NCBI RefSeq assembly: GCF_000831645.3
Contig: NZ_CP012559.1
Location: forward strand, 2,170,001 to 2,234,000
Direction: 5' to 3'
Length of the DNA stretch: 64,000 bases
Origin: Companilactobacillus heilongjiangensis
GTDB taxonomy: Bacteria > Bacillota > Bacilli > Lactobacillales > Lactobacillaceae
Part shown: in pieces, positions 4,933-13,261 of the stretch
Numbering within the stretch: position 1 is the stretch's first letter
Layout of the letters: the number at the start of each line of letters is the position of its first letter
The notes under the pieces: model-generated
Told to the model about the DNA's origin: nothing
Databases searched by the model: none
What the model saw: only the letters and a program-made list of their open reading frames with translations
Made by a program: the position numbers and the translations under genes

Positions 4933-5124
4933 AGCCTCTGATTGTCAGTGATGGAGTCTGCTGTGGTAGTGGAGTTAGGACGAGTGCATTTCTCGTTCTT
5001 ACTCCACAGGGACGACTTTTGAGACTTGCCGGTTTTGCAAGGCTCAAAATCGAGACTTGAGACCGCACTTTGGCTCAAGTCGGTCCCATAGCGGAACTCC
5101 ATCATCTGACAATCGGAGGCGGAA
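4933..5124 (+). repeat. R1 structured repeat, copy 2
   Basis: Complete R1 copy ending 61 bases before the lipoprotein start. Outer arm GATTGTCAGTGATGGAGT is matched by a near-perfect complement; the internal hairpin is GTGGAGTTAGGACGAG/CTCGTTCTTACTCCAC. Open frames running through it come from the repeat and are not genes. Confidence 0.9.
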
Positions 5125-5185
5125 TTTTTCAACAACCCCCTTGTCATGTTATAATCCAACCAGTATTCAATGGAGGAATTCAAAA

Positions 5186-6055
5186 ATGAAAAAAGCTTTA
5201 TTACTCGCAACAACAGGTTTGGCACTAATTATAGCCGGCTGCAGTAATTCTTCATCATCAAGCAAAAGCACTGACAACAGTGATGCTTACAAGACAGAAA
5301 TGACTAAGGGTAACGATGCCGTCAGCGACCAGAACTATTCACGTGCTGCTGACCACTTCGAGTCCGCCGTCAAAGCTAAGAAGACTGACAAAGCCACAGC
5401 TTCTGAAAAACAAGCTACTAATTTGGTAAAAGCTAAGAAATTGATGAACAAACGTCAATTTTCTGCCGCTAAAAAAGCTTTAACAATTGCTAAAGATCAA
5501 GATAATGGCAATAAGAAGATGACTGCTAAGGCAAAAACAATGCTCAAGCAAGTTGATAAAATTGAAGTAACACGCAATAACTTTAAACTAGATATTAAAA
5601 ACGCTAAGGCAATGATCAAGTCTGGTGATAATGACCAAGCTCGTTCATTGTTAGAACAAGTAGCTAAGTCTAAGAATGTTAAAGGCAAGTATTACTCTGA
5701 CCTTTATGCTCAAGCTAAGGAATTGTTAGACACATTACCAGCCGCTACCGTGACCGCTACTGATGAAACTAATACTGATAACAACGGTGATGATTCAGCC
5801 GACAATAAAGACGCAACAGATGATGACCAAAGCAATAATCCTGCCGCTAAGGGTGATTTCGATATTGAATCGAGAAAAGGCCAAGGTAAAGAAATTACTG
5901 ACGCTGATATTGCTAACGCCCGTCAACAATTGACTGACCAAGGTGTTAAGACAGTTGGTGCTTGGAGTGACAACGATATTATCCGTGCTATCAAGAATGC
6001 TCGTGCTGATGGTCGTGATACTATTCAACCTTCTGACGCTCAGATTCGTAACTAG
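5186..6055 (+). CDS. Lipoprotein with TPR-like helical region
   Basis: 289 residues from the chosen ATG, preceded by ATGGAGGAATT. Lipoprotein signal peptide with lipobox Ile-Ala-Gly-Cys (Cys at about 18), so it is probably anchored on the outer face of the membrane. Residues about 35-185 are Lys/Ala-rich helices with TPR-like character (DQNYSRAADHFESAVKAK; SGDNDQARSLLEQVAKS). An Asp/Asn/Thr-rich linker follows (about 190-225), then a short C-terminal domain (about 230-289). The frame is open upstream into the R1 repeat, but that part has no signal peptide logic and lacks a ribosome binding site. No known function recognised; it is a stand-alone gene with its own terminator. Confidence 0.8.
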   Translation: MKKALLLATTGLALIIAGCSNSSSSSKSTDNSDAYKTEMTKGNDAVSDQNYSRAADHFESAVKAKKTDKATASEKQATNLVKAKKLMNKRQFSAAKKALTIAKDQDNGNKKMTAKAKTMLKQVDKIEVTRNNFKLDIKNAKAMIKSGDNDQARSLLEQVAKSKNVKGKYYSDLYAQAKELLDTLPAATVTATDETNTDNNGDDSADNKDATDDDQSNNPAAKGDFDIESRKGQGKEITDADIANARQQLTDQGVKTVGAWSDNDIIRAIKNARADGRDTIQPSDAQIRN

Positions 6056-6082
6056 GTTTTGATTTGTTAAATATATAGTAGA

Positions 6083-6117
6083 AAAGCATCCAGTCGAAAT
6101 TGACTGGATGCTTTTTA
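6083..6117. terminator. Bidirectional terminator between lipoprotein and nucleotidyltransferase genes
   Basis: Perfect 11-bp stem AGCATCCAGTC/GACTGGATGCT with TTTT after it on the plus strand and AAAA before it. It serves the convergent genes; the minus-strand stop codon (6115-6117) sits in its T run. Confidence 0.9.
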
Positions 6118-6903
6118 GTTTGGTAATAAATTGTTTAAGTCTGTAATGACAACTATTTGATTGGGTCTTTCAGCTGCATTCATATGCCGAAATTTTAATT
6201 TGAATTCTCTTTTATCAGTATCCTCAACTAGTTTGATAAATTTCTTCAAATCCGATTGAACTCTCTCTGGAACTAAACTCAAATCGTAATTATTATCCGG
6301 TAACAGTTCTGTTAAGCGACAAACATCGTTAAAATGCTTTGTCTTATCACTTCTTTGCACCTGCTGACCATCCAAAATGCGTTTTCTTATATCCAAGTGT
6401 GCCTTAGCCTTAAATAAAATTAAGTATGCTGGGCTTAAAACAGGTGCACCCTCAGAACCAACCTGTATTCGTTCAACCCCTTTTTTGAGAATTTGATAAT
6501 AATCATCATCTAAAACAATTGCTGACAAACTGGGACCATTCTCAAAGTGCAATGGAGTTTTATGAACATCTGGTTCAATTAGGTCATATAAGAAAGGCTT
6601 TCTGCAAAAAAGTTCTATTTGACTTGGAACAGATTCATTCTTGGTGACAAACCTATAGTAACTTTTATCTTTATTCTTTCCAAAACCATCCATAGAGTAA
6701 CCATATTTCTCAACAAACTGCATAAAACGTTCCGAAAATCCTGCGGTGGCATTTTCGAAGATAACCACCATATCATAATCGTGTGTTGCTCTAAAATCCT
6801 GTCCCTCTTTATTCAGTAAGATAGATGCTGCGTTTCCACCAATAATCGTATAGCAGTCACTATATGATTTAAAAAAGTGAAAGAAGTTTTCAAATGGCAT
6901 CAA
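6115..6903 (-). CDS. AbiEii-like nucleotidyltransferase (putative toxin)
   Basis: 262 residues. Nucleotidyltransferase hallmarks: Gly-Gly-Asn-Ala-Ala at 22-26 and the metal-binding pair Asp42-x-Asp44 (HDYDMVV). A helix with KAKAHLDIRKR comes later, as in AbiEii/DUF1814-type toxins of type IV toxin-antitoxin phage-defence systems. Such enzymes add nucleotides to target RNAs, for example tRNA; the target here is unknown. Its start overlaps the stop of the upstream regulator by 4 bases, so the two are translationally coupled. That order (regulator/antitoxin first, nucleotidyltransferase second) is the usual one. Family and role are inferred from motifs and arrangement. Confidence 0.75.
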   Translation of the reverse strand: MMPFENFFHFFKSYSDCYTIIGGNAASILLNKEGQDFRATHDYDMVVIFENATAGFSERFMQFVEKYGYSMDGFGKNKDKSYYRFVTKNESVPSQIELFCRKPFLYDLIEPDVHKTPLHFENGPSLSAIVLDDDYYQILKKGVERIQVGSEGAPVLSPAYLILFKAKAHLDIRKRILDGQQVQRSDKTKHFNDVCRLTELLPDNNYDLSLVPERVQSDLKKFIKLVEDTDKREFKLKFRHMNAAERPNQIVVITDLNNLLPN

Positions 6904-8039
6904 TTGTCCCTCCAGATATTGTCTAGCATGTCTTCCAATTCAGAATCTACACGTTCGTCATAATTTTCTTTTGACATCATTAAATACAAGTCCAAAGGAT
7001 CAACTACATCCCCAGGGTATTCTTTATCCGTCTGTCTATAAAGTACGTTAAAAAAATTCAAATCATACTTTTGGACCTGAATTAAAAATTTCAAATCAGT
7101 ATTAAATGGCTCGCCCATTGATTCACTAGCTTCTCTAATTACAGTATTTGACAATGTATTAAACATGTTTTTATCCGTAACGAACGTTTTTCTCTGATTA
7201 TCGGAAATCATAGTTACCTGACTCAATCCTGTGAAGCCGCTCTTCAGTAGTTTTGAGTAATCTAAAGTTTCAACGATACCCCTGTTAACAGCAGAATCAA
7301 ACTTCAATTCTTTTTCATGCACAGGTGAAACTAGATATTCAAGACCAGCTTCAAAGTATGCCCGGCTTTCCAGTGGATACGTATATATTCGGTCAACCGT
7401 CTCACCTGATGCCTTGAGTAGTCCATGAGAAATCAAATCATTGGTTGCTCTGGAAAAACTGATTCTATTTTTGATACCAATATTTTTACCAACACGACTA
7501 TAAAATTCTTGTCCACCTTTAATAACCAACTGTCCCAGGTCATTAACTAAAATATTTTTAGCGCCTATTTCTACAAATACTGCTCGGTTTTTTTCTGCCA
7601 TAAGCATCATCATCAAAATGAACATATATAGTCTCTGACCAACTGGCGATAGAGTTTTATTGTCATTAAACATTTTGATTTTATTTGGGAAAAGCTTTGT
7701 TCCAAGAAATGGCAGAAATATTTCTCCTTCTAGAGTAATAAAAGGAATACCCTTCTCGATTAAGAATTTTCTATCGTCCTTGCCCAATTGAGTAACCATT
7801 ATGACAGAATCAAATTCATTATTCTCCCTTATTCTTTGAATTATGGACACTGCTCTTTTAACATTTCTGGCCTGATAATCTACAAGATTGATCTCTCTAC
7901 TAAGAATGGAGGCACGATAAACTACCGATACCCTTTTGTCTAAATTAGACATTGGTATCTCAAGTTGCTTCTTTATTTCTACCGATATTCCACTCTCTCT
8001 TCTGAAATAATCCAATTGATCAGAAATGTTATTTATCAT
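6900..8039 (-). CDS. AbiEi-like regulator/antitoxin with winged-helix domain
   Basis: 379 residues, larger than classical AbiEi. A stretch around 100-115 (DRKFLIEKGIPFITLEGEIF then LPFLG) matches the segment common to regulators encoded beside AbiEii-type nucleotidyltransferases. A winged-helix-like segment follows (NIGIKNRISFSRATNDLISH then GLL, then a beta wing ending YTYPL, about 185-225), then a C-terminal helical region that could bind the partner. It is the first gene of the pair, and a perfect 19-bp inverted repeat lies in its promoter, as expected for autoregulation. Role inferred from context. Confidence 0.7.
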   Translation of the reverse strand: MINNISDQLDYFRRESGISVEIKKQLEIPMSNLDKRVSVVYRASILSREINLVDYQARNVKRAVSIIQRIRENNEFDSVIMVTQLGKDDRKFLIEKGIPFITLEGEIFLPFLGTKLFPNKIKMFNDNKTLSPVGQRLYMFILMMMLMAEKNRAVFVEIGAKNILVNDLGQLVIKGGQEFYSRVGKNIGIKNRISFSRATNDLISHGLLKASGETVDRIYTYPLESRAYFEAGLEYLVSPVHEKELKFDSAVNRGIVETLDYSKLLKSGFTGLSQVTMISDNQRKTFVTDKNMFNTLSNTVIREASESMGEPFNTDLKFLIQVQKYDLNFFNVLYRQTDKEYPGDVVDPLDLYLMMSKENYDERVDSELEDMLDNIWRDN

Positions 8040-8065
8040 ATTAATTACCCTTTTGTCATATTTGT

Positions 8066-8137
8066 TTTTTTCTATTGTAACATTTTATATCGTATTGTTT
8101 CATTGCAATGTTACAATAGAAAAAAATAATGTTACAA
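8066..8137 (-). promoter_or_regulatory. Operator of the AbiE-like pair
   Basis: A perfect inverted repeat, TTTTTTCTATTGTAACATT (8066-8084) and its exact complement (8107-8125), flanks a 22-base centre with the -10-like sequence TATAAA on the minus strand. A third copy of the decamer AATGTTACAA lies at 8128-8137. The same decamer, with one variable base, recurs upstream of the ATPase gene at 9762-9823. Probable binding site of the AbiEi-like protein. Confidence 0.75.
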
Positions 8138-8209
8138 CTGATTGTAAAGACAATGTTCAGTGGGCGTACAGGTATTAATCAAATCAATTCACACCATTAA
8201 ATTTGTTCT

Positions 8210-8271
8210 ATAAATAAAGAAGAATATCAGACCGCTTCACTTTCAAGGGCTTGATATTCTTCTTATTTATA
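8210..8271 (-). terminator. Terminator of the AAA ATPase gene
   Basis: Long inverted repeat ATAAATAA-GAAGAATATCA / TGATATTCTTC-TTATTTAT, starting 10 bases past the minus-strand stop. Near-perfect over about 19 bp with a 16-18 base loop. There is no clean T run, so it could also be an mRNA-stabilising structure. Confidence 0.6.
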
Positions 8272-8278
8272 TTCTTGA

Positions 8279-9484
8279 TTAACTCATATCTGTGACGAAT
8301 TTAGAGGTTGCTTTCTTTAAAGCAAGATAGGCATCATATTCTGGTGCCGTTCCAGGTATACTGTCGGACATGAAAATATCTGACCGTAAAACATCGTTTC
8401 TCATATTGGTGCTGGAATATCTAGTCAATGAAATTTTATCTAGTCTTCTTGTTATATATATTTGATCATTTCTGTCCAAATCATCCAAGAATTCAGAATA
8501 ATGCGTTGTGAAAACTAATTTTGCATGATTTATATTTATTGATGGGTCTTTAAAATAATTTATAAAAGTTCTAGCTATGGCATGATTGAAATGATTCTCA
8601 ATTTCATCAACGAAAATAATTCCACCATTTTTTAAAGTATTCAATATCTGCGTATAAAGTGAAATACCTTTGGCCGTACCAGAAGATAAATAATACTCAA
8701 TCGTGGCAAAATTTCTATCAGTGATTTCTTCATCTTTATTTTTGAATTTTAATCTATAAAAAGTCTGTCTATTGTTATTTTCATCTACTCGCTCAATCTT
8801 AAGGTATTCAATACTTGGATCCAAATATCGCAAAATCTCACTTGGAACATATCCTAGATTAGAAACGAACAAATTCGTATTTGTAAAAATTGTATTATCA
8901 ACCACGCTAGGAATATTGTAATCATTAATTTTTATTATTGTTCTAAATATTGAATCATCTGGAGCCAATACTGCCGCAACCTCTGGACTGAGATTATTAC
9001 GATCCATAATCAATTTTGCCTTAGAAAAATCTAGTGATTTTTTCTTACTCTCATTAACTAAAGCTCTCTTTCGATAAATTTTTTCTGTTCTTATCTCAAG
9101 ATTATTGGATTCTGAATTTTCATTTTTAGCAATCGTAATCACATCTTTGTATAAAAATTTATCAGTCCCATACAAATAAATGTTAAATGTCACTGCTGAA
9201 TCATCAAATAATATTTCATTTAATTTAGTCTCTTCAATCGACCTATTGTTAAGTAGCAATGACAGTATACCAATGGTTAATTTCAAAATTGCTGTTTTAC
9301 CAGTGGCATTCTTACCTACTATGGTTGTCACATTATTCGTATAGTTATTTCCAAAGAGGTTAGTTAGAGATTCAGTGTGGCCTTTTGAAACTCTACTATC
9401 GGTTAGCAAAGAAAAATTCAGTTTATTCTCAAATAATGGATACCCTTCAATATCAAGTGATAGGAAGCGCAACTTATTTTCCAT
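8279..9484 (-). CDS. AAA (ABC/SMC-type) ATPase, putative defence protein
   Basis: 401 residues. Walker A GKNATGKT at 57-64, after an N-terminal beta domain of the kind seen in AAA_15/AAA_21 and OLD-type ATPases. Walker B GGIIFVDEIE with Asp293-Glu294, followed by the switch His in LVFTTHYSEFLDDL. The C-terminus stops about 75 residues later, so there is no TOPRIM or other nuclease domain. Such stand-alone ATPases are frequent in defence islands, where they act with a partner. It is a single gene here, 240 bases from the AbiE-like pair and with related operator decamers upstream. Partner and activity unknown. Confidence 0.75.
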   Translation of the reverse strand: MENKLRFLSLDIEGYPLFENKLNFSLLTDSRVSKGHTESLTNLFGNNYTNNVTTIVGKNATGKTAILKLTIGILSLLLNNRSIEETKLNEILFDDSAVTFNIYLYGTDKFLYKDVITIAKNENSESNNLEIRTEKIYRKRALVNESKKKSLDFSKAKLIMDRNNLSPEVAAVLAPDDSIFRTIIKINDYNIPSVVDNTIFTNTNLFVSNLGYVPSEILRYLDPSIEYLKIERVDENNNRQTFYRLKFKNKDEEITDRNFATIEYYLSSGTAKGISLYTQILNTLKNGGIIFVDEIENHFNHAIARTFINYFKDPSININHAKLVFTTHYSEFLDDLDRNDQIYITRRLDKISLTRYSSTNMRNDVLRSDIFMSDSIPGTAPEYDAYLALKKATSKFVTDMS

Positions 9485-9512
9485 TTCTTTACCTCGTCTT
9501 AAAACGTATTCG

Positions 9513-9531
9513 ATACATCATTTTGATGTAT
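9513..9531 (-). promoter_or_regulatory. Palindrome just upstream of the ATPase gene
   Basis: ATACATCA-TTT-TGATGTAT, a perfect 8-bp inverted repeat located 29 bases before the start codon on the minus strand. Its size fits a repressor site or a small hairpin covering the translation start region. It differs from the TTGYAACATT decamers further upstream. Confidence 0.45.
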
Positions 9532-9678
9532 TCAAGTAGTATGGTACCAGATAAAACGCCTTTTAACCATAAAATATGTTTGAAGACTATCTTTCGGTTT
9601 TAAAACATCCAACCATATGCCTGTATATATAGTAATTACGTAATTAGCCCATTTTTTATCTATAAAAAATTAACATTA

Positions 9679-9724
9679 GAAAAGCCCCAGGTTACTGAGT
9701 TCCATCAGTAATCTGGGGCCTTTG
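9679..9724. terminator. Terminator-like hairpin in a divergent intergenic region
   Basis: AAGCCCCAGGTTACTGA / TCAGTAATCTGGGGC stem with T and A runs outside. It lies between two divergently transcribed genes, so no annotated gene needs it as an end. On the minus strand it falls between the decamer operators (9762-9823) and the ATPase start and could act as a leader attenuator. Confidence 0.7.
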
Positions 9725-9761
9725 GAGATTATTCCAGGGACATATTCCGAAATTCCAAAGA

Positions 9762-9823
9762 TTGTAACATTATTTTTTCGATTGCAACATTGTAATGTTG
9801 CAATCGATTTTTAAATGTTGCAA
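9762..9823. promoter_or_regulatory. Cluster of four TTGYAACATT operator half-sites
   Basis: TTGTAACATT (9762-9771), TTGCAACATT (9782-9791), and AATGTTGCAA at 9794-9803 and 9814-9823. The middle pair forms a perfect 13-bp inverted repeat with a two-base centre (9779-9806). The decamer is the same as that in the AbiE-like promoter 1.7 kb away. Confidence 0.7.
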
Positions 9824-9872
9824 TTCAATACATTGAAATAAAAGCAGATTTTTAATGTTTCAAAAAAATTAG

Positions 9873-9878
9873 TATAAT
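9873..9878 (+). promoter_or_regulatory. -10 box of the small membrane protein gene
   Basis: Perfect TATAAT, about 36 bases before the ATG at 9915; the -35 region is poor. The decamer operators lie 50-110 bases upstream of it. Confidence 0.5.
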
Positions 9879-9914
9879 GGTATACGTTATATTTAATACG
9901 CATAGGAGAAATTT

Positions 9915-10373
9915 ATGACTGAGGAAAAAGTAAAAAAGCACACGACCCGAGCCATCTGGATCGCCTGCATTTTAATATTAATGGGGGCTTTTGGAATTCC
10001 TCAACTATATCGCAATTATCATTCTGCACCCTACTGCTATTCTTCGGGCAGCCAGATAACCTTGGAGAGCAAGCAGACGCACAAATTGAACAAATATCAG
10101 AAAAAGCAATTTATCAAAATGGCTCGTTTAGCAATCGACAAAAAAGATGGACCTTTTGACTGGCAAAACTATCAAAACGTTTCTATTAATGTCTACAAAA
10201 TGAAGAAACCTTCTGAATATGGTCTGATCTATAAAGTTAAACCCACGATACGTTCCAAGCAACATACAATCACCAATTCCATTATCGTAAAATTAGCTGA
10301 CCGTGATTTGAAGACTTACCATAAGTTTAAAATTAAGGGGTATTCTTCAGACTTTTCCAGCTTTTTTAACTAG
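9915..10373 (+). CDS. Small membrane-anchored protein of unknown function
   Basis: 152 residues. A charged N-terminus (EEKVKKHTTR), then one membrane helix at about 13-30 (AIWIACILILMGAFGIPQL), then an extracellular part of about 120 residues rich in Lys, Tyr and Ser with alternating beta-like pattern. No lipobox. I do not recognise a family. Ribosome binding site ATAGGAGAAA. Its TAG stop is 3 bases before R1 copy 3. It is divergent from the ATPase gene across the operator cluster; whether it belongs to the defence island is unclear. Confidence 0.65.
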   Translation: MTEEKVKKHTTRAIWIACILILMGAFGIPQLYRNYHSAPYCYSSGSQITLESKQTHKLNKYQKKQFIKMARLAIDKKDGPFDWQNYQNVSINVYKMKKPSEYGLIYKVKPTIRSKQHTITNSIIVKLADRDLKTYHKFKIKGYSSDFSSFFN

Positions 10374-10376
10374 GGT

Positions 10377-10558
10377 CCGTCTCCGGAGCTGAGCGAGAAG
10401 TATTTCGCCTGCTGTGGGACCGGCTCGAGCCATAGTGCGGTCTCGAGCCTCGATTTTGAGCCGGAAACCACGTCTCAAAATTCGTCCTGTGTTGTAATGG
10501 CTGACGCCCTAACAACACTGTCACTGCTGGTGAATACTTCTCGCTCAGCTCCTCCGAC
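10377..10558 (-). repeat. R1 structured repeat, copy 3
   Basis: Complete copy starting 3 bases after the stop of the membrane-protein gene. Outer arm GGAGCTGAGCGAGAAGTATT is perfectly complemented at the other end (AATACTTCTCGCTCAGCTCC), one of the best examples of the conserved pairing with private sequence. Confidence 0.92.
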
Positions 10559-10579
10559 TCATTGGGTTGGAGTTTTTTT
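10552..10579 (+). terminator. Terminator overlapping the R1 copy 3 end
   Basis: CTCCGACTC-ATT-GGGTTGGAG followed by seven T. The last bases of the R1 repeat form its left arm, so the repeat and the terminator of the 9915-10373 gene are fused. Confidence 0.7.
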
Positions 10580-10792
10580 ATTGGTTTTAGTTTTGTGATT
10601 TAAAGGCTAAAAAAAGCAAAACATAAAAATAATACTTTGCTCCTTAATATTGGAACTATTTAGTACTACGAGTTAACTGTCTTCGGTAATATAAATCAAA
10701 AGACAACTAGCAACTTCAAAAAATGGAGGTCACATTAAGCGGCTTCCCTTTGTATTCTTTATTTAGCTTTTAAGAAAGTTAGTCCAGAAATA

Positions 10793-11047
10793 TCATAAAT
10801 TCTCTAGTCGCTTCATAAGATATTCATGTTCATCATAAATATTGTTGGCTATTTCAAGAATATTCGGAGTAGCACTCTCTACTTTTTTGAATGTTATCTC
10901 TTTCCCATCAGGCGATACAGTTTTTTCAAATTTAGTACCTTCGTCAACCTTCATAAACTCGCAATCCTTTTTCGACATCCTAAAAGCATATGAATTTCCA
11001 TTTTTGAACATCTTAACTTTTTGATTTAGTGACTCCGAATTAATCAT
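10793..11047 (-). CDS. MazE/AbrB-like antitoxin, orphan
   Basis: 84 residues. Residues about 9-52 (VKMFKNGNSYAFRMSKKDCE, then a short turn and ITFKKV) match the swapped-hairpin SpoVT-AbrB/MazE DNA-binding fold, which starts with a variant of the family's K-x-GNS-x-x-xRIPK motif. The C-terminal 30 residues would bind a toxin. No toxin gene follows within the next 230 bases, where a mazF-like gene would be expected, so it is an orphan or the toxin was lost. The ATG is preceded by GGAGGGTGAC. It lies alone between R1 copies 3 and 4. Confidence 0.7.
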   Translation of the reverse strand: MINSESLNQKVKMFKNGNSYAFRMSKKDCEFMKVDEGTKFEKTVSPDGKEITFKKVESATPNILEIANNIYDEHEYLMKRLENL

Positions 11048-11257
11048 TAACTGTCACCCTCCATTCTACGTTTGTATATTATCATGCTGTACATATGTAA
11101 TACATAAATATATCTCATTTTTCCTAGTTTTATTAGTTTGAAAAAACGTGATGGATAAAACTATCCTAGTAAATGCTTTCAATTTATTGTTATTATTTTC
11201 CGATTCGTTTAACCGTAATACTGAATCAATGTAATCCACAGCACATCCAATTAACTT
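11048..11257. other. Upstream region of the MazE-like gene
   Basis: Contains the GGAGGGTGAC ribosome binding site of the minus-strand gene and an AT-rich promoter zone (TGTATATTATCATGCTGTAC, about 11074-11093). No other feature seen. Confidence 0.35.
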
Positions 11258-11436
11258 AGCCTTCGGGTGTGAGTGATGGAGCCTGCAGTGACAGTGGAGT
11301 TAGGACGGCGATTTTCCGTTCTTACTCCACAGACGTATTTTGAGATTTGCGCACTATGCAAAGCTCAAAATCGAGGTGCGAGACCTTGGCTCGAACCGGT
11401 CTCACAGCGGTGGAATCACTCACACCCGAAGGCGGC
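11258..11436 (+). repeat. R1 structured repeat, copy 4
   Basis: Complete copy. Outer arm GGGTGTGAGTGAT with complement ATCACTCACACCC. Very close in sequence to copy 7. Short fourth hairpin GCGAGACCTTGGCTCG. Confidence 0.9.
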
Positions 11437-11571
11437 ACTCCTCAAAAAATCAAAATCTATTTTTAAAGATTTGATAACATTTCCTTTAACTGTTTCTTAA
11501 AGCTATTGCGGATTTACCGATTGCATTATAGGTTTACTATGAACCGCAAATTAAAACGAGGAGGTATATTG

Positions 11572-12426
11572 ATGAAAAAGAATAAAGTTTTAATCGGCTC
11601 GGCATTAGCTTTGTTAATCGCTCCAACCGTCCTGTCTAATTTGTCACCTCAAAGCGTAAGTGCGGCAGATACAGCGGAAATCGGTGGTTTAGTCGGTACT
11701 GTCACTGGTAGCGGGGTCATGGTCGATGATCAGGGTCAAACTATCACCAGCACTTTTCTTCCAAACAACAGTGCTTGGAAACTTGGCAGCACTAAACAAA
11801 TCAACGGCGTAACATACTATCAAGTTGCTACAAACGAATGGATTTCTGCCAAAAATTTGAATATTAGTAGTCAAAATCAAGCTGCTCAAACGCAAGCACA
11901 ATCACAGGTACAAACTAGTTCATATGAAACTGCTGTTGCTAATACGGGTCAAACTGGAACAACTAAATGGGCAACGGCAGTCGTCAACAGCCAAGGCCAA
12001 GCAGTCAGTGGCATAATGTTACCAGCCGGTTCTTCATGGAATATCGGTCAAACCGTTACGATCAATGGCACAAGTTATATCCAAATTGCGACTGATGAAT
12101 ATGTGGCCGCAAGTAATCTGAATATTGCGACACCACAGACTGAAGCTCAAGCTGCAGCACAACAAACTGAACAAGCTCAACCAGTCGTTGGTACAGTGGT
12201 GAATGGTCCGGCGGATGTCTATGACACTTCAATGGATTCATTCTCTGGTCGTCAGTTGCAAGAAGGTACTCAGTGGAAAGTTGGTCAACAGGTTCAAAAT
12301 AAATATGGCTATACTTTCTACCAAGTTTCAACCAACGAATGGACACAGAGTTCAAACATGCAATTAAATCAAGCTAATCAAAATGTCACAAGCGAACCAG
12401 AATTTGCGACATCTGTTACACAATAA
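11572..12426 (+). CDS. Secreted protein with three SLAP-like repeats
   Basis: 284 residues from the ATG at 11572, which has GAGGAGGTATATT before it; an upstream in-frame ATG lacks a site. Signal peptide about 1-31 (cleavage near VSA-AD). Three units of about 60 residues (about 38-98, 128-185, 200-262), each with a central S/Q-x-W and ending in Y/F-x-Q-V/I-A/S-T-x-E-W/Y. Units are separated by Gln/Ala-rich linkers. Same wall-binding repeat type as the two surface proteins at the window start. No enzymatic domain, so it is probably a structural or adhesive surface protein. Transcribed alone. Confidence 0.78.
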   Translation: MKKNKVLIGSALALLIAPTVLSNLSPQSVSAADTAEIGGLVGTVTGSGVMVDDQGQTITSTFLPNNSAWKLGSTKQINGVTYYQVATNEWISAKNLNISSQNQAAQTQAQSQVQTSSYETAVANTGQTGTTKWATAVVNSQGQAVSGIMLPAGSSWNIGQTVTINGTSYIQIATDEYVAASNLNIATPQTEAQAAAQQTEQAQPVVGTVVNGPADVYDTSMDSFSGRQLQEGTQWKVGQQVQNKYGYTFYQVSTNEWTQSSNMQLNQANQNVTSEPEFATSVTQ

Positions 12427-12649: not shown

Positions 12650-13261
12650 ATGTACAAACATTTTATAGTAATTGCCGATAGTTATAAAAAAGGTTCTAGA
12701 ATTGCCTATAAAGAAACATCCCTAAGTACAGATAGAAGTCTATTAACTAAGATTACGAACATTAGCGATACGTTAAAAAACAATAATATAACTTCCTATT
12801 CGACTCATCTTATTGATACTGAAGGGGCATCATGGCAGTCAGTTATTGACTCCGATCCTTTCTTTAAAGATATCCTCATTCTGAACAATATTGAAAACTT
12901 CATTGCTGAATACAAAGACGAAATAACTTCCACAGATATTGCCGAATATATAACCGAGCGTTTTTCATTAACTGCCCCACCACTTATGAAATTAGTCTAC
13001 TTTGTATACTCCGACTTCTTAGCTGAGTATAAACGACCATTATTTGAAAACAATTTTGTTGCCTTTAAATATGGTCCAGTTGATGCTGGACTTTGGGAGA
13101 AGTATAAATTTAATTATCGTTCAAAAATAGAGCCTGCATTCAAATCAGATACTAATTCCATTTCTCCTGTAATTAGTAAACTGATAAAGGTCGGAGAATA
13201 TGAGCATGTTAAAAGTACTCTGAACTCTATAACAACGGACCAAATAATAACAATTAATTAG
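12650..13261 (+). CDS. Panacea (SocA-like) antitoxin-domain protein, possibly truncated
   Basis: 203 residues. The segment at about 118-152 (LMKLVYFVYSDFLAEYKRPL ... FKYGPV) is the signature of the Panacea/SocA domain, a general antitoxin domain that neutralises many unrelated toxins. The N-terminal 110 residues are unlike anything I recognise. The reading frame ends in a TAG that belongs to the first bases of R1 copy 5 (tagTCGGAAGAG), so the original C-terminus may have been replaced when the repeat arrived. No toxin gene is adjacent. Ribosome binding site AAGAGGTGAAG. Confidence 0.65.
   Translation: MYKHFIVIADSYKKGSRIAYKETSLSTDRSLLTKITNISDTLKNNNITSYSTHLIDTEGASWQSVIDSDPFFKDILILNNIENFIAEYKDEITSTDIAEYITERFSLTAPPLMKLVYFVYSDFLAEYKRPLFENNFVAFKYGPVDAGLWEKYKFNYRSKIEPAFKSDTNSISPVISKLIKVGEYEHVKSTLNSITTDQIITIN

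Follow-up and report, generated by a model that had tools for sequence, protein, structure and literature searches.

A predicted four-site operator at a putative AbiE/MenAT-like toxin–antitoxin pair of Companilactobacillus heilongjiangensis, and its second copy beyond a neighbouring ATPase gene

The 64,000-nucleotide stretch of the Companilactobacillus heilongjiangensis genome analysed here (contig NZ_CP012559.1, positions 2,170,001 to 2,234,000; hereafter the window) carries on its minus strand a pair of genes for a regulator and a nucleotidyltransferase (NTase), the start of the latter overlapping the stop of the former (TGATG). Two clusters of the decamer TTGYAACATT accompany them, one in the promoter of the pair and the other beyond a neighbouring ATPase gene. 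The elements on which the analysis centres are the following:

6115–6900, minus strand: NTase of the pair, a putative MenT/AbiEii-type toxin, 261 aa from the ATG at 6900 (the open reading frame (ORF) is listed from the TTG at 6903)
6900–8039, minus strand: regulator and putative antitoxin, 379 aa, three modelled domains
8074–8138, minus strand: array A, four half-sites (8128, 8107, a degenerate one at 8095, and 8075) in the regulator promoter
9761–9824, minus strand: array B, a second complete array of four half-sites at the right end of the inserted block

Exact matches to TTGYAACATT number seven in the window, and all of them fall inside the two clusters, at 8075–8137 (8075 on the plus strand, 8107 and 8128 on the minus strand) and at 9762–9823 (9762 and 9782 on the plus strand, 9794 and 9814 on the minus strand). 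These positions confirm that the promoter of the pair and the region upstream of the ATPase gene share the decamer in three and four copies, respectively, as the original prediction had it. The whole 2.79-Mb genome contains 43 matches; the 36 outside the two clusters are dispersed, roughly one in every 78 kb, and no three of them lie within 2 kb of one another. Counted on the decamer, both arrays measure 64–65 bp and consist of two half-sites in one orientation followed by two in the other, at distances of 20, 12 and 20–21 bp. The fourth half-site of array A is degenerate (TTGTTTCATT at 8095), so that this array has three exact sites and a degenerate one, and array B four exact sites. When half-sites are scored as ATTGTAACAT, the start-to-start distances are 20–21, 14 and 20 in arrays A and B and in both arrays of a sister species (genome G333). 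The inverted arms of array A, 8062–8084 and 8107–8129, are 23 nt long with a single mismatch (96%); the perfect inverted repeat proposed for this promoter therefore exists, although its perfect run is 20 bp and not 19. The perfect 13-bp repeat proposed for the second cluster was likewise recovered, as a palindrome at 9778–9807 with at least 13 perfect pairs. Since 8074–8120 and 9761–9807 are direct repeats (74% identical) and the plan of half-sites is the same, the two clusters are copies of one structure. The leftmost site of array A contains an extended −10 element, TGTTACAAT, on the minus strand. Between the window and G333, 3 of 40 half-site bases of array A have changed, against 65 of 148 elsewhere. 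An Rfam scan of 5000–12000 gave one sub-threshold match only.

The distribution of this array was followed through 397 genomes of the Lactobacillaceae, in which G000 denotes the window's own genome and L numbers denote individual loci. The 379-aa regulator was found in 13 of these genomes, and their promoters were examined together with those of a homolog from the same genus (L054) and a plasmid homolog (L125), giving 15 promoters; the independent ones are fewer, as L013 and L125, and also L016 and L017, are near-identical. A four-site array lies just upstream of 14 of the 15 regulators, each with a score above all 30 of its shuffles, the exception being L019. In a consensus-free test applied to six of the 15, none of the 60 shuffles equalled winA, L011, L015 or L021. 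Of the 18 arrays scored (15 promoters, both B arrays and a scar), 16 have a central distance of 14 and two a distance of 15. The homologous regulators are 20–35% identical to that of the window, apart from the 84% of G333, and the layout is nevertheless kept, which indicates that the operator plan is as durable as the protein itself. Because the same array precedes 14 of 15 regulators, it is best read as the predicted autoregulatory operator of this regulator family, and the earlier suggestion that the decamer is an operator half-site of the regulator stands as a prediction. Upstream of the L019 regulator (28% identical), the 400 bp instead contain a long inverted repeat (ATTGGTGCATAAAATTAAGTATA...) that occurs twice, at an interval of about 140 bp, so that two arrays are again present.

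A strict pattern of three half-sites, run on the same 397 genomes with the reversed pattern as a control, matched in 19 genomes and on both strands, hence with four sites, in 12. Both-strand matches occurred in 9 of the 13 genomes with the regulator and in 3 of the 384 others (G152, G352 and G347); the match is array B in G000 and G333, and a second array in G234. The reversed pattern gave no match in any listed row. In seven genomes the match was confined to one strand: G323, which has an array fragment, and G092, G118, G158, G253, G265 and G357. The latter six, along with a further match in G061 (C12), have wider spacing and, save for G265, resemble one another; they were judged unrelated. 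A looser pattern of two half-sites, with which 14 regulator-bearing genomes were searched for a regulon, yielded 51 matches, of which 21 are arrays at regulator promoters, array B or one scar in G234, and the 30 unassigned ones are about as many as the reversed control gives (34). That the clusters arose by chance, or are AT-rich repeats with no part in regulation, can be practically dismissed: the 36 further decamers in the genome speak for it, but two clusters of identical geometry occur in one genome, the geometry is conserved across genera and the reversed control is empty in every listed row.

Relatives of the module were also detected outside the Lactobacillaceae. A scan of viral contigs with the NTase profile returned two relatives, L127 among them, and by way of L127 homologous regulators were traced to 33 plasmid records, mostly from Pseudomonas and Alphaproteobacteria and annotated mainly as hypothetical. 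Two phage records were found for a distant homolog of the regulator, and none for the window regulator itself. The module family occurs on conjugative plasmids, phage contigs and chromosomes. In the consensus-free test, nine of 11 distant promoters scored above all 60 shuffles, only five of them clearly so: L127 and four Pseudomonas plasmids, three of these being close relatives of one another. For L137 and L138, which have no annotated start codon, the upstream region was taken from the edge of the match. The distant arrays keep the geometry with other letters (TGTAAACCAC, TTAACATACT), and the positive tests indicate that this geometry is common to at least the Pseudomonas and phage-contig branches.

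Some arrays stand without their genes. In G347, which has no regulator, an array stands beside the two genes between which G317 carries the pair, and after it comes a 13-residue remnant that matches the G317 NTase at every position. The array of G323 lies between two genes that adjoin the pair or the regulator in sister species (in G243 and G332 this holds for both genes, in G258 for the upstream one). As these arrays are located exactly where sister species carry the pair, we regard them as scars of lost modules. In G234, a second array is followed by what appears, by eye, to be a decayed regulator-like start; a tblastn search for module remnants did not list it. Taken together, the three cases suggest that arrays outlive their own genes. 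A different arrangement was seen at L141 (G152), where a regulator-less four-site array (1501–1561) lies about 170 bp from a gene (1729–2322) pointing toward it, whose 197-aa product looks by eye like a classical AbiEi antitoxin.

The NTase model (pLDDT 78.7) matches the fold of MenT3 (6y5u, Z 11.4 over 214 residues), MenT1 (8an4, Z 11.2), JHP933 (Z 9.8) and MenT4 (Z 8.5), so that it covers MenT toxins over most of its own length, at a structural-alignment identity of 10–16%; the proposal of an AbiE-like regulator/nucleotidyltransferase pair is supported by this match. Residues G22, G23, R38, D42 and D44, which form the GG and R-x3-D-x-D motifs of DUF1814 toxins, are invariant in 9 of 9 and 10 of 10 aligned homologs, as are K165 and a KHxxD motif (K189, H190, D193). 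From fold and motifs, the NTase is a putative toxin that probably acts by nucleotide transfer. It has no match in NCBIfam, PADLOC or PHROGs, and its Pfam rows are at chance level only. An intact NTase gene is missing beside the regulator in 5 of 14 aligned loci (internal deletion in L010, none detected in L017 and L021, shortened in L018, split in L019), as a costly NTase would lead one to expect.

The regulator model (pLDDT 81.5) divides into three parts. Residues 1–110 resemble XisH (2inb, Z 7.9) and EndoMS (5gkj, Z 7.6), both of which we take to have the PD-(D/E)XK fold; residues 124–237 resemble winged-helix structures (4pql, Z 6.8; CooA 1ft9, Z 6.3); and residues 248–379 are NTase-like, as is the C-terminal domain of AbiEi (MenT1 8an5, Z 6.2; LnuA 4fo1, Z 5.4; ANT(2'')-Ia also matches). 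The model suggests the winged helix and NTase-like domain of the AbiE type, at Z values of about 5–7, plus a third, N-terminal domain, and a nuclease-like domain followed by a winged helix and an AbiEi-type C-terminal domain is its probable architecture. Distant homologs match Pfam MarR_2 in the region of the winged helix, in one case (L130) exceeding the cut-off (27.6 against 27 bits), and also give weak matches to PADLOC CARF models. According to the available part of PMC7319586, the structural neighbours of the AbiEi C-terminal domain are antibiotic nucleotidyltransferases, including 4FO1, together with 5UVD. The domain readings of both models were taken from VIA-align rows; Foldseek returned no match at E ≤ 0.001 for either model, and sequence searches of solved structures with the NTase and regulator profiles returned nothing credible.

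Among known systems, AbiE of Streptococcus agalactiae (AbiEi/AbiEii) is similar in its order of a regulator gene followed by a DUF1814-like nucleotidyltransferase gene, in the hGG and R-x3-D-x-D motifs, in its promoter repeats and, going by the regulator model, in the NTase-like C-terminal domain of the antitoxin, as described in the accessible sections of PMC3985639 and PMC7319586. By the same sections, it differs in several respects. AbiEi has two domains, whereas the 379-aa window regulator has an extra modelled nuclease-like one at its N-terminus; the AbiE operator consists of two 23-bp repeats 3 bp apart, whereas that of the window has four half-sites at a spacing of about 20 bp; motif IV, +DxxD in AbiE, reads KHxxD in the window NTase; and the window proteins have no Pfam or PADLOC AbiE match. 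The G23–D42 spacing is 18 residues, against 15 quoted for AbiEii in the part of PMC3985639 available. MenAT of Mycobacterium (MenT1, MenT3, MenT4) shares the MenT fold (Z 8.5–11.4), and the Rv2827c promoter also has four repeats in the description accessible in PMC7319586; the antitoxin architecture and the sequence and spacing of the repeats differ, and the identity is low, as given above. Pairs of COG4861 and COG4849, named as AbiE relatives in the available text of PMC3985639 (COG4861 also in that of PMC3968373), are likewise regulator and DUF1814-type NTase pairs placed near AbiE, a likeness by description only; they may well include the regulator family of the window. No description of the four-site operator plan or of the three-domain regulator was found in the accessible portions of the literature searched, which included PMC7319586, PMC3985639, PMC11375011 and PMC3968373. 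Four half-sites in fixed geometry provide a recognisable DNA signature for an NTase toxin–antitoxin family that is unnamed in Pfam, NCBIfam, PADLOC and PHROGs.

We propose, with a probability of roughly 0.78, that the locus holds a mobile AbiE/MenAT-like toxin–antitoxin module with a four-site autoregulatory operator, that the ATPase comes from a separate AbiLi-like system and that array B duplicates the operator. The module would comprise two genes, the NTase as putative toxin and the 379-aa regulator as putative antitoxin and autorepressor. The regulator would bind TTGYAACATT half-sites in a 64-bp four-site dyad, in which two sites spaced by about 20 bp are followed, after a short central stretch, by their mirror image; as the last site overlaps the extended −10 of the regulator's own promoter, its occupancy would be expected to shut off the operon.

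Several observations weigh against this proposal. L018, which exceeds its 30 shuffles in the consensus scoring, is marginal in the consensus-free test (1 of 60 shuffles equal); L019 is negative in that test (19 of 60 equal) and has a different repeat upstream; and the strict pattern overlooks imperfect arrays, array A itself among them. The distant promoters L133 and L138 show no significant array against 60 shuffles. The domain matches of the regulator are modest (Z about 5–8), and for this reason its three-domain reading is held at probable. Neither window protein matches a Pfam, NCBIfam or PADLOC model of AbiEi or AbiEii, and the sole AbiE-model match among the homologs scanned is a weak one, that of the L127 NTase to PADLOC AbiEii (E 0.032, residues 22–71).

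The block between the two arrays, and the gene to the right of array B, contain the following features:

8279–9484, minus strand: AbiLi-like AAA ATPase, 401 aa (PADLOC AbiLi, E 3.2e-34; Pfam AAA_21, E 4e-12)
9540–9586, minus strand: promoter-like block of the ATPase, AAACA..TTTTATGGTTAAAA...TGgTAccATA, from an alignment of four orthologs
9680–9723, minus strand: terminator-like hairpin between array B and the ATPase (−26.8 kcal/mol, z −4.6)
9915–10373, plus strand: 152-aa protein with a hydrophobic N-terminal stretch (by eye), the resident right-hand neighbour of the insertion

The original prediction suggested that a shared site would place the ATPase under the control of the antitoxin, as the third member of a possible defence unit. 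In such a unit, array B would drive the ATPase leftward and the toxin pair and the ATPase would act together. Array B does have the same leftward extended −10 element as array A, the ATPase is the first gene leftward of it, and the usual partner of the ATPase is missing, so that the pair could have replaced this partner. The evidence from the locus nevertheless makes such a unit very improbable. A strong hairpin intervenes between array B and the ATPase, with none of 200 shuffles as good. The promoter-like block of the ATPase is common, with changes, to all four orthologs aligned. The closest orthologs of the ATPase, in G275 (78%) and G213 (77%), lie beside the same 152-aa gene and with the partner (split in G213), and have neither array nor pair; in G213, a TPR lipoprotein gene is found on the other side of the ATPase and its partner. 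G333 keeps the regulator and both arrays and has no ATPase match in its genome. Conserved co-occurrence of the three genes, whose absence from other genomes the original prediction had named as one of two refuting outcomes, failed to appear in the loci compared: the ATPase was absent from all 36 of the other pair loci (which represent 28 distinct places, eight being wider views of the same genomes, some holding one gene or a remnant only, with flanks of 0–6 kb). Six of the 13 family genomes with the regulator have some ATPase match, adjacent in G000 only, the sole case among the 397 genomes, and elsewhere in the genome in the other five.

The ATPase instead has a different partner. At 27 ATPase loci including the window, from which the weak partial matches L083–L085, without a partner match, were left out, an ORF downstream on the same strand, whose N-terminus carries a common motif, was recognised by eye in 21, and tblastn with the G275 partner found the small partner gene, a candidate AbiLii, in 19 (G275 included). 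We presume the motif to be Toprim-like, an assignment that no database match supports, and the partner gave no match in the databases searched. The three-gene unit was rejected on the evidence above and on this partner gene. As regards AbiL (AbiLi ATPase plus AbiLii), the window has the AbiLi-type ATPase and no downstream partner ORF beside it; the resemblance lies in the AbiLi match and in the small gene downstream in relatives, and the differences are that this gene lacks a database match and is absent from the window. Toxicity of AbiLii is described in the accessible part of PMC3985639. The ATPase most likely belongs to a different defence system and lies beside the pair by chance, and its locus, promoter, hairpin and co-occurrence together argue that two defence modules share one insertion site. 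A plausible merger of two defence systems that lacks support is thereby corrected. Upstream of the ATPase, at 9513–9531, there is also a small inverted repeat (ATACATCA-TTT-TGATGTAT) which is not in the aligned orthologs.

In G313 the TPR gene ends, by eye, directly before the 152-aa gene, from which we conclude that the pair with its arrays is an insertion and array B its right edge. In the reading preferred here, the module would have entered between a TPR lipoprotein gene and the 152-aa gene, where relatives hold another defence-like gene pair; the ATPase would be the AbiLi-like component of that other system, with its own promoter-like block and with its partner gene missing in the window; and array B would be a second operator copy, probably still bound and not tied to the ATPase. 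In G333 most of the NTase gene is lost and both arrays are kept, array B without the ATPase. Between G000 and G333, none of the 40 half-site bases of array B has changed, whereas 26 of the 137 surrounding bases have (p = 0.0007; two sequences only). The half-sites therefore look selected and array B is probably still bound; this conservation suggests that the regulator binds at 9762–9823.

Why array B should be retained is a matter on which two explanations compete. It might act as a remote operator, either governing the divergent 152-aa gene or a short transcript that runs leftward and ends at 9680, or looping to array A, a possibility to which we give not far short of even odds. The unchanged half-sites favour it, and in both species TACAAT is retained only at the site that overlaps the −10 element, with TGCAAT at the other three, as though the leftward promoter remained in use. 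Array B also ends about 90 bp upstream of the start of the 152-aa gene (9915), closer to it than to the start of the ATPase (9484); its right edge adjoins the 152-aa promoter, and homology with pair-less relatives resumes at 9848–9864. Conversely, the comparison covers two genomes only, and in G333 the hairpin to the left of array B does not outperform its shuffles (z −1.0). Homologs of the 152-aa gene were located at 27 loci, spread over 21 of 36 genomes of the genus, with an array upstream in G000 and G333 only, the two genomes that have the regulator at the locus; the other 25 loci have no array, so this gene is not a native target, and the reading of array B as the native operator of this gene was rejected. 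Five of the 25 array-less loci contain one stray near-match within 400 bp.

Alternatively, array B could be the scar of a second module copy whose genes were deleted, which we consider possible, though doubtful. The scars of G347 and G323, where sisters hold the pair, and the second array of G234 are precedents, and start-like codons follow array B in G333. Against it, no credible protein remnant was found beside array B in either species, the best tblastn matches being at chance level (E 0.02–0.2); this search is not a sensitive test, since it also missed the G234 remnant read by eye. The half-sites, moreover, look selected rather than drifting. With arrays that persist as scars once their genes are gone and a spare array that looks selected, the spread of an antitoxin operator becomes directly testable. 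A still wider reading seems unlikely: a phylum-spanning AbiE-like class of toxin–antitoxin modules, as yet without a name, whose antitoxin has a nuclease-fold sensor domain and whose four-site operator can be copied to, or left at, new promoters, the spare array here having been recruited so that the antitoxin also controls one more transcription unit, either that of the 152-aa protein or that of a short RNA read leftward.

Leftward of array B in G333 (L010, 1305–1361), a start-to-stop reading of 18 codons, VSIEQLQKALVVLLLFVE, coincides in part with a weak hairpin and may be a remnant of a regulator start or nothing. Farther along the window, the segment 10793–11047 encodes an 84-aa protein with a weak match to TIGR02609 (doc-partner antidote), and 12650–13261 a SocA/Panacea-domain protein. 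A dispersed, apparently intergenic repeat of about 80–200 bp recurs every 2–3 kb or so across the 64 kb, for example at 4956–5130, 10371–10580 and 11261–11450; it is found at some 20 further places in both orientations (one copy has 25 blastn matches besides itself) and is common to G333.

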